Below are positions 22,047 through 34,297 of a stretch of DNA of 40,089 nucleotides, piece after piece. This DNA comes from a virus. The notes beneath the pieces are model-generated. The model searched no databases and was not told where the DNA came from. It saw only the letters and a list, made by a program, of their open reading frames with translations. The translations under genes were made by a program, and so were the position numbers. Position 1 is the stretch's first letter; each line of letters starts with the position of its first letter. The stretch lies in IMG/VR virus record IMGVR_UViG_3300021962_000008, positions 1 through 40,089 of that record. One strand, written 5' to 3'.

Positions 22047-22643
22047 CTAATAGTCCCATCTCACATTGGGCCTACCTTTTCGTATCCCAAGATGCACAAA
22101 CCCCTTTGGCGCGCCGTAGCCAAGGCTATAGGGCCAGTTCTTATCGCACCAATCCTGCACTTCATTGATGTCAGCGCCGCTGATATAAAAGTCAACTGCA
22201 CCGCACCCCTTTTGATATAAGTGTTCCGAGCTGCTAGCGCCACCAACCTGCAAATTGATGGCAGGTGGCCTGTAGCCACTTGTAATCACGACTGGTTTGC
22301 CGCCAAAAGCCTTGCGCGCACGTTCCATGAACTCGGCAAGTTCAGCGGCAATGTCGATCTGATCCTGCCTTGTAAAGCGCCGCGCTTCTTGATTAAGTGC
22401 AAATTCACCGAGCGTGATGTGCGGTGTAAGGCGGCTGCTGAATGGACTGCCGGGTGACAGCTTTGCGGGTTCTTGTTGCTTGCCGGCTTGGCTCCATGTT
22501 TTAAACCATGCCTGATCTCTATTAAAGAGATCTGGCACTCGCTTTAATAGCTCGGCCTCCAATTCAACGATGGCCGCCATCTGGTGCGGCGATCCGTGCT
22601 TGTAGTACCTAAACAGGTCTGATGGCTTTACTGGCGTTCCCAT
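22047..22643 (-). CDS. Endolysin, peptidase M15 (D-Ala-D-Ala carboxypeptidase-like)
   Basis: This 198-residue cell-wall peptidase acts in lysis. The zinc ligands of the M15A family are clear: SSEHLYQKGCGAVDFYI with H141 and D151, and GFVHLGIR with H184. VITSGYRPPAINLQVGGASS precedes them, as in other members. The N-terminal 75 residues (MGTPVKPSDLFRYYKHGSPH) may bind the wall. There is no signal peptide, so export should depend on the holin. It lies just after the holin-like gene; the holin frameshift extension ends 16 nt inside it. Confidence 0.9.
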   Translation of the reverse strand: MGTPVKPSDLFRYYKHGSPHQMAAIVELEAELLKRVPDLFNRDQAWFKTWSQAGKQQEPAKLSPGSPFSSRLTPHITLGEFALNQEARRFTRQDQIDIAAELAEFMERARKAFGGKPVVITSGYRPPAINLQVGGASSSEHLYQKGCGAVDFYISGADINEVQDWCDKNWPYSLGYGAPKGFVHLGIRKGRPNVRWDY

Positions 22644-22968
22644 GGCGCATGAATGCTGATAGGGCCGCCTAGCAGTCGGCTTTCGCCAGTCTGCAAGGCA
22701 TCGTCAATTGGATGATGCACAATGATTGGCTCTGGATCCTTGGGCTGCGCTGCGTGCCATTCGGCCTCAGCCCGATCTAGCTTGGTTGGCAGGGTTAGTT
22801 CAAACCACCACTGACGCCAGCCAACCTCTAGCGCTTTTTTGCTTTGAGCAGATTCAAGATCTGAAACACAAGCTGGATGACGCCATTGCTTTTGAGCGGG
22901 CTAAGTGCGATCAGCTCAGATGCAGCAGCAACGATGATCCAGAAGGCGGGGTGGGAAAGGAAGTCCAC
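22628..22968 (-). CDS. Candidate -1 frameshift product: holin-like protein with C-terminal extension
   Basis: Translation starts at the GTG at 22968, slips back one base on A AAA AAG (22840-22834) and continues in the -1 frame to TAA at 22630-22628. The product has 113 residues: 45 from the small membrane protein plus 68 new ones (ALEVGWRQWWFELTLPTKLD, EPIIVHHPIDDALQTG, LLGGPISIHAPWERQ). The extension has no ATG, GTG or TTG between its upstream in-frame stops and its first 35 codons, yet it looks like a real protein and fills the gap up to the endolysin. The extended form could tune lysis timing, in the way of a holin/antiholin pair. Confidence 0.72.
22784..22840 (-). promoter_or_regulatory. 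Programmed -1 frameshift signal (A AAA AAG plus stem-loop)
   Basis: On the leftward strand the zero frame reads GCA AAA AAG CGC TAG, so the heptamer A AAA AAG (22840-22834) is in the correct phase. After a 7-nt spacer (22833-22827), GGTTGGC (22826-22820) can pair with GCCAACC (22790-22784). An inner GGTT/AACC pair (22806-22803 with 22796-22793) has a 6-nt loop. Spacing and phase fit known bacterial -1 signals. Confidence 0.75.
22828..22968 (-). CDS. Holin-like small membrane protein, zero-frame product
   Basis: A GTG start at 22968, four bases after the upstream stop, gives 46 residues (MDFLSHPAFWIIVAAASELI, ALSPLKSNGVIQLVFQILNL). One clear membrane helix (8-22) and a second, shorter hydrophobic stretch (29-41) are followed by a basic tail (LLKAKKR), a common holin layout. 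It lies between a membrane-anchored coiled-coil protein and the endolysin. The frame ends just after a slippery heptamer. Confidence 0.72.
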   Translation of the reverse strand: MDFLSHPAFWIIVAAASELIALSPLKSNGVIQLVFQILNLLKAKKR

Positions 22969-22971
22969 GGC

Positions 22972-23220
22972 TTAGCGATGTGGGCGTGCTTCCAGCGTAG
23001 CGACACGCTGCTCAACTCCACTAATGCGTTGAAATGTCTCGCGGCGATCTTCTTTGATGTCAACATGCAGCACCTCTAGCTGCGTGGCAATGTGCTCTAC
23101 AGCAGCGGTCAACCTAATAACAGCATCACGCGCTTCGTCGTTGCGTTTGCTGAAGCCCATAGCTCCCATCGCCGCAACGCTGATGGACGCCCCAGCAATA
23201 GCAGCGATGACCTCGATCAT
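22972..23220 (-). CDS. Membrane-anchored coiled-coil protein (Rz/spanin- or holin-like)
   Basis: The protein has 82 residues. An N-terminal hydrophobic helix (MIEVIAAIAGASISVAAMGA, 1-20) is followed by a long charged helix (AVIRLTAAVEHIATQLEVLH, DRRETFQRISGVEQRVATLE) with heptad spacing. This layout suits an inner-membrane spanin (Rz-like) or a holin accessory. It immediately precedes the holin-like gene in the lysis cassette. The assignment rests on topology and context, not a family motif. Confidence 0.68.
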   Translation of the reverse strand: MIEVIAAIAGASISVAAMGAMGFSKRNDEARDAVIRLTAAVEHIATQLEVLHVDIKEDRRETFQRISGVEQRVATLEARPHR

Positions 23221-33767: not shown

Positions 33768-34297
33768 CTACCGATGCTTGGCCTTGCGCATTGCTTCGTC
33801 ATGCTCCTTGCCTTCGATTTCGTACAACATGGCCCACAGTCGCAACTCCTCAATTGTGATGCGCTGACTTAACTCCATGACGGTATAGCCCAGATCGCGG
33901 GCAAGCCGCATCATGAGCCGCATGTAAATGTCACGCTTCAGCTCTTTTTTGCGTCTTCCTCTGCTACGTCATTCTTGTCGGTGATGACAGCCAGCATTAG
34001 CGCTTGCAGGTCTTCATCACGTACCTCATTCTTAAGTTCAGCCACTTCGCCAGCGCGAAACAACGGCTGGCCTGCATCGTCCTTAGCTTTTTGGATCAGC
34101 AGTTGCAATGCAAATGCTGTAGCCTCTTCGCTGCCTGCATCTTTCTGCGCCTTTTCGCGCTCTGCCATGGTCAACGGCGTGCAGTAAAACTCAAATTCAG
34201 TGCCATCGCTCAGCGTGACGCACTTTTTGATGGGCACGAGATGCGCGGCCTTCTTTAGGCGATCAAGAGCACGCATTGATGATTGGATGTTTGGCAT
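33768..34297 (-). CDS. Tail assembly chaperone, G-T frameshift fusion
   Basis: A -1 slip at A AAA AAG (33950-33944) joins the first 118 residues of the zero-frame protein to 58 residues of the -1 frame (ELKRDIYMRLMMRLARDLGY, TVMELSQRITIEELRLWAML, YEIEGKEHDEAMRKAKHR), 176 in all, ending at TAG 33770-33768. This is the classic lambda gpG/gpGT arrangement just before the tape measure gene. The T-part motif (ITIEELRLWAM) resembles other siphovirus GT tails. The fusion recruits tail-tube subunits onto the tape measure; it is not in the virion. Confidence 0.88.
33938..34297 (-). CDS. Tail assembly chaperone, zero-frame (gpG-like)
   Basis: The protein has 119 residues and is mostly helical and charged, with VTLSDGTEFEFYCTPLTMAE near the start and acidic/lysine residues at the end (DVAEEDAKKS). 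The zero frame stops one codon after the slippery site (AAA AAG AGC TGA). It should be made in excess over the fusion form. It lies between the terminator after the major tail gene and the tape measure gene. Confidence 0.85.
   Translation of the reverse strand: MPNIQSSMRALDRLKKAAHLVPIKKCVTLSDGTEFEFYCTPLTMAEREKAQKDAGSEEATAFALQLLIQKAKDDAGQPLFRAGEVAELKNEVRDEDLQALMLAVITDKNDVAEEDAKKS
33944..33950 (-). promoter_or_regulatory. Slippery heptamer A AAA AAG of the tail chaperone
   Basis: The zero frame reads GCA AAA AAG AGC TGA, so the heptamer is in the right phase for a -1 shift. No strong stem-loop stands out just downstream. The three-codon context GCA AAA AAG is identical to that in the holin-like gene. 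Confidence 0.85.

Follow-up and report, generated by a model that had tools for sequence, protein, structure and literature searches.

We identified a small membrane-protein gene in the lysis region of a cyanophage that we interpret as a programmed −1 ribosomal frameshift cassette, with a probability of roughly 0.93. Most ribosomes would produce a protein of 46 residues, while slippage one codon before the stop would fuse the same N-terminal part to a 68-residue extension encoded in the −1 frame. Sequence comparison demonstrated a conserved slip site, a conserved phase and protein-level selection on the extension; slippage, its rate and the fused protein are inferred.

A slip site in the lysis-type cluster

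The analysed window is a 40-kb virus record (40,089 nucleotides) from a Synechococcus-type cyanophage, with Synechococcus phages S-CBS3, S-H1 and KBS-S-2A among its relatives. A lysis-type cluster on the minus strand comprises, in order, an 82-aa protein, the 46-codon gene, an open −1 frame and a peptidase M15 endolysin (Table 1). The initial annotation had noted A AAA AAG in the correct phase near the stop of the 46-codon frame, and we located this heptamer at 22840–22834. The 3′ end of the ORF reads GCA AAA AAG CGC TAG, with CGC as the only sense codon between the heptamer and the stop. A −1 slip on A_AAA_AAG changes the reading to AAA AAA GCG CTA GAG, and the predicted fusion product comprises 45 + 68 = 113 aa. 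The −1 frame runs uninterrupted from 22900 to a TAA at 22630–22628, with 68 codons following the slip. It reaches the endolysin start as described earlier, the endolysin ATG being located within the end of the extension (16-nt overlap). The absence of a usable start codon before the conserved part was likewise borne out: the sole start-type codons, GTG and TTG, lie 36 and 44 codons past the 0-frame stop, and both fall inside the conserved part.

Among 21 other long ORFs in the window (7,812 codons in total), none contains the in-phase heptamer. The tail chaperone gene, for which the initial annotation had claimed the same heptamer and codon context, reads GCA AAA AAG AGC TGA at 33950, and a −1 ORF follows. 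The context common to the tail chaperone and the holin-like gene is GCA AAA AAG NGC stop. The −1 extension of the tail chaperone reads KKELKRDIYMRL...

The 82-aa protein upstream consists of an N-terminal hydrophobic segment followed by a charged C-terminal part, and its sequence (23220–22972) shows weak similarity to Rz-like spanin models. A pair resembling the 82-aa protein and the small membrane protein is also found in P60 (gp38/gp39) and S-CBP42.

Table 1 Features of the frameshift cassette, its neighbours and the tail-chaperone control
Feature	Position	Strand	Basis
Holin-like membrane protein, 46 aa (short product, 0-frame)	22828..22968	−	ORF list, PHROG 22542 match, hydropathy
0-frame start GTG and stop TAG (one sense codon past the slip site)	22968 (start); 22830–22828 (stop)	−	
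Slippery heptamer A_AAA_AAG, 0-frame phase	22834..22840	−	Conserved in relatives, wobble constraint
−1 frame extension, 68 codons + TAA	22628..22834	−	Homologues, dN/dS, AlphaFold2
Possible stimulatory stem, GGTTGGC (22826–22820) with GCCAACC (22790–22784)	22784..22826	−	Folding
Endolysin (peptidase M15_3)	22047..22643	−	ORF list, family matches
82-aa protein, PHROG 26178 (upstream lysis-cassette candidate)	22972..23220	−	ORF list, PHROG, hydropathy
Tail-assembly-chaperone-like gene, heptamer 33950–33944, −1 extension	33938..34297	−	Internal positive control

Conservation of the slip site across relatives

Using the extension as query, we obtained 51 IMG/VR loci, and the small protein of phage WH11-B as query yielded 80 loci. 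Together with the cultured phages S-CBS1, S-CBS3, S-EIVl, KBS-S-2A, 7B11-B, WH11-B and S-B28, 128 loci were readable at the junction, originating from sipho- and podovirus-type cyanophages, cultured isolates among them. In every one of these, the extension lies in the −1 frame after the small protein, with the slip site 0–1 codons before the 0-frame stop. The check proposed initially, that the small membrane protein and a slip site in −1 phase always precede homologues of the extension, was therefore passed by 128/128 loci in this clade. The sites comprise 122 A_AAA_AAG, 4 C_CCA_AAG, 1 G_GGA_AAG and 1 G_AAA_AAG; an exact X_XXY_YYZ heptamer of one of three types is thus present in 127 loci, the remaining locus (L007) being G_AAA_AAG. 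Because the cultured phages S-CBS1, S-CBS3, KBS-S-2A, 7B11-B, WH11-B and S-B28 agree, the arrangement is not the error of a single assembly.

The residue preceding AAA AAG varies among Ala, Pro, Gly, Thr, Val, Gln, Glu and Arg, while the last base of its codon is always A wherever the heptamer is A_AAA_AAG. Since the loci are not independent and closely related contigs are over-represented, we counted changes by parsimony, using a tree built from 92 distinct sequences; the underlying alignment spans only 36 codons, so that the counts are approximate. The codon before the site underwent ~23 amino-acid changes versus only 3 wobble changes, whereas the mean for the other codons is 16.7 wobble changes and 5.6 amino-acid changes. 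On this tree, the last four bases of the heptamer did not change at all. A wobble base held constant while the amino acid varies indicates that selection acts on the heptamer rather than on the residue. From codon usage, xxA AAA AAG is expected by chance about 0.05 times per gene.

Site and extension occur together in 70 of the 80 loci from the small-protein scan. The other 10 have neither and all belong to one podovirus clade (MSFLAEPW / MDFLSEPW, including MedDCM-OCT-S37-C6), in which the gene ends with CCA AAG AA(A/G) CAG, without heptamer and without extension.

Two further loci (L264 and L265, at about 1000–1344) have a holin-like frame and an extension-like frame, in −1 phase to each other, around AAA TCA AAG TAG. 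Neither an X_XXY_YYZ heptamer nor a usual start was found there, and the extension opens at ATC behind a purine-rich stretch. These two loci are unexplained exceptions to the slip-site rule.

Coding evidence for the extension

The initial annotation had judged the −1 frame to encode a realistic protein and had suggested Ka/Ks as a check; purifying selection was detected in this frame only. Pooled dN/dS is about 0.16 (182 pairs), with values <0.5 in 25/25 disjoint pairs. The same DNA read in the other two frames gives 1.1 and 2.1, and those frames are interrupted by stops in 92/94 and 94/94 unique extensions. Substitutions are distributed over the three −1 codon positions as 1263, 660 and 2865. 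Five loci (L030, L031 and L048–L050) lack ATG, GTG and TTG throughout the extension frame.

AlphaFold2 predicted a helix (residues 2–28) and two strands (37–40 and 59–62) for the extension (pLDDT 89, pTM 0.44). The predicted structure matches S-PM2 Q5GQH8 (TM 0.58), and sequence and fold searches of the PDB with the extension gave no meaningful match. The conserved C-terminal end occurs as PISIHAPW, DLHIRAPW or GWSISLTSPW and looks, by inference, like an interaction motif.

In the deposited records examined, the extension is missed or called a truncated separate ORF, pointing to a systematic annotation error. S-CBS3 (L054, 1986–2153) and S-EIVl (L055, 1971–2207) each have it annotated as a truncated gene starting inside the conserved part. 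Prochlorococcus phage P-RSP2 (L157, HQ332139) contains an unannotated ORF at about 860–1120 that is broken by an apparent one-base homopolymer deletion, likely a sequencing error in the deposited record.

The extension as a separable module

The C-terminal module is homologous to PHROG 6464 / T4-GC410 proteins of cyanomyoviruses, which are of unknown function (hhalign probability 96%, E = 3.5e-9, 46 columns); direct PHROG 6464 matches were obtained for 5/41 extensions. Unlike the extension, these stand-alone proteins have a start and N-terminal helices of their own and are not fused to a small membrane protein; the extension of the window's clade fails the family's criterion of a stand-alone ORF with its own start. 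Stand-alone homologues comprise T4-GC410, Prochlorococcus-phage-like contigs (MIFGFFKKLIKYYIDK...) and the downstream genes of S-CBS2 and S-CRES3. In S-CBS2-type phages, the holin-like gene is followed by the module in the same −1 phase, with a GTG of its own overlapping the stop (GTGA/TAGTG). The small protein and the module of S-CRES3 are separate ORFs, and the T4-GC410 and Prochlorococcus-phage-like forms each start at an ATG of their own.

An extension with its own start had been named at the outset as an observation that would refute frameshifting. Such forms do exist, in S-CBS2, S-CRES3, T4-GC410 and the Prochlorococcus-phage-like contigs, but only among distant relatives. They identify the extension as a separable module and do not refute frameshifting in the window's clade. 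Judged from these sequences, the module is normally separate, and the window's clade attaches it by frameshifting, one solution among several; its position next to a small membrane protein likewise takes several forms. In T4-like cyanophages, the module occurs although the small protein has no recognised counterpart there, so the module may not be holin-specific and could have a wider role. The cassette offers a lead towards the function of PHROG 6464 (T4-GC410), whose role is unknown although the gene is conserved in cyanomyoviruses.

Alternatives to ribosomal frameshifting

The extension could be a separate gene, translated by termination-reinitiation at the stop of the small protein without any fusion, as the overlapping GTG of S-CBS2-type relatives and the ATG of the T4-GC410 and Prochlorococcus-phage-like forms might suggest. 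However, the window and its close relatives have no start codon at or near the stop, and five loci are without any start-type codon in the extension frame. Nor would reinitiation call for a heptamer that keeps its wobble base as the amino acid varies; we consider it very unlikely. Transcriptional slippage, which would add a base to the mRNAs, is compatible with the six consecutive A of most sites. Such a stretch is short for slippage by bacterial polymerase, and the C_CCA_AAG and G_GGA_AAG variants lack a long homopolymer but preserve tandem tRNA re-pairing, with which all sites are consistent. On the basis of these variants, we rejected transcriptional slippage, leaving it only a very slim chance. 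A homopolymer indel, sequencing error or decayed gene would imply that the true gene has one more A and encodes an in-frame fusion. P-RSP2, which reads six A where its relatives read seven in frame, illustrates such a case. Yet the 128 loci, which come from cultured isolates and from many separate sequencing projects, include no in-frame version; both reading frames are conserved, purifying selection acts on the extension and the stop always lies within one codon. This explanation is contradicted by the missing in-frame version, and we rejected it as having next to no chance of being correct.

Identity of the small membrane protein

The 46-aa protein matches PHROG 22542, a family of unknown function (E = 1.1e-23). 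Its hydrophobicity peaks at 1.85 over 17 residues despite a conserved Ser-Glu, and helices at residues 7–22 and 29–41 were predicted for a relative (L003). The holin criterion of a small protein with at least one transmembrane segment is met. The gene is directly upstream of the endolysin in the window, S-CBS3, S-CBS1 and KBS-S-2A. Neither the small protein nor the extension matched a Pfam or NCBIfam holin family, and a PDB sequence search with the small protein gave no match. The earlier label 'holin-like' is thus supported by size, hydropathy and position beside the endolysin or before the small terminase, but by no family model.

The frameshift could be real and the gene not a holin, the small protein serving instead as a membrane anchor for a module with a role in host takeover, virion assembly or a different late step. 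Besides the missing family match, this would fit the position of T4-GC410, which in several cyanomyoviruses has either gp3 (a tail gene) and uvsY or nrdB as neighbours, and the 82-aa neighbour could itself be the holin. Gene order speaks against this: the siphovirus gene lies between the tail genes and the endolysin, the podovirus gene (WH11-B, S-B28) immediately ahead of the small terminase, the position of the holin in T7, and P60 and S-CBP42 encode similar small proteins near the endolysin. A non-holin role is rather unlikely, although it cannot be set aside. That the small protein is a holin is probable, a judgement resting on size, hydropathy and gene position; permeabilisation is untested.

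Our genome scan returned one match, apparently phage DNA within a binned genome. A contig labelled as a Phycisphaerae MAG (L154, PBAY01000002) encodes, at 2501–2593, a holin-like small protein without a slip site and also carries a ferredoxin-like gene; the contig is probably misbinned cyanophage DNA.

Proposed mechanism and comparison with known systems

In the mechanism that we propose, most ribosomes would make the 46-aa membrane protein, probably a holin or holin partner. A minority would slip back one base with tRNAs on AAA AAG (CCA AAG or GGA AAG in relatives), bypassing the stop one codon on. The resulting 113-aa product would consist of the same membrane part and a C-terminal module with a long helix, two short strands and a PISIHAPW-type end. 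Both products are inferred to reside in the inner membrane, and the positive-inside rule would place the Lys-rich junction, and hence the module, on the cytoplasmic face. The slip rate would fix the minor-to-major ratio, as in tail chaperones, and mixed assemblies would display the module, whose most likely role, again inferred, is to tune holin triggering or to recruit a partner. It is a tentative proposal that the cassette acts as a lysis switch, widely distributed among marine and freshwater cyanophages: the frameshift rate would set the ratio of holin to extended isoform and thereby time lysis. In such a switch, it would do so in place of dual start codons or a separate antiholin gene.

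To our knowledge, the tail chaperone is the recognised conserved case of −1 frameshifting in dsDNA phages. As in lambda G/GT, an X_XXY_YYZ slip close to where a short ORF ends yields a C-terminally extended minor product; here, however, the gene encodes a membrane protein in the lysis region, and the extension is unrelated to tail proteins. The dnaX gene of E. coli frameshifts at A_AAA_AAG_UGA, where the shifted product is shorter and an upstream Shine-Dalgarno-like sequence acts as stimulator. Our site has the same heptamer with a stop immediately downstream, but its shifted product is longer, and no Shine-Dalgarno-like stimulator is evident by eye. Lambda S105/S107 is a dual-product holin gene with two start codons and an N-terminal difference between its products. 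It resembles the cassette in that one small lysis gene gives two isoforms whose ratio could set lysis timing, whereas the difference here comprises 68 C-terminal residues made by frameshifting. Recoding is also tied to a phage lysis gene in MS2, in which translation of the lysis gene is reported to depend on termination-reinitiation after a frameshift in the coat gene (cited in PMC5009743, PMC10885494) and no fused lysis protein is made.

The initial annotation knew of no described holin with this arrangement, and we found no matching report of a holin or antiholin with programmed frameshifting in the open-access literature; a report elsewhere is not excluded. If confirmed, the cassette would be a second case of −1 frameshifting in dsDNA phages, in a lysis-region membrane gene common to sipho- and podovirus-type cyanophages, and a novel route by which a phage could produce two holin-like isoforms at a set ratio. 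Cyanophage lysis is poorly characterised, yet it matters for marine carbon cycling.

RNA structure downstream of the slip site

The initial annotation had proposed a stem downstream of the heptamer. Its pairs exist at the distance given, 7 nt after the heptamer (−17.4 kcal/mol), but the fold is not unusual for the composition and support is weak: z is only −1.4, with 17/200 shuffles folding equally well, and −0.7 with more flank. By eye, L003 keeps the stem through a compensating T-A to C-G exchange, and L005, L008 and L151 break one or more of its pairs. No stem shared and conserved across the family was found; the sequences fall into several unrelated-looking groups. The case for a conserved stimulatory hairpin is limited to a structural trend at the family level, and a downstream stimulator is plausible but not shown. 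In a set of 37 dereplicated loci, RNA is more structured over the 60 nt that follow the site, with a mean z of −1.29 compared with −0.11 to −0.79 upstream and further downstream (p = 0.006).
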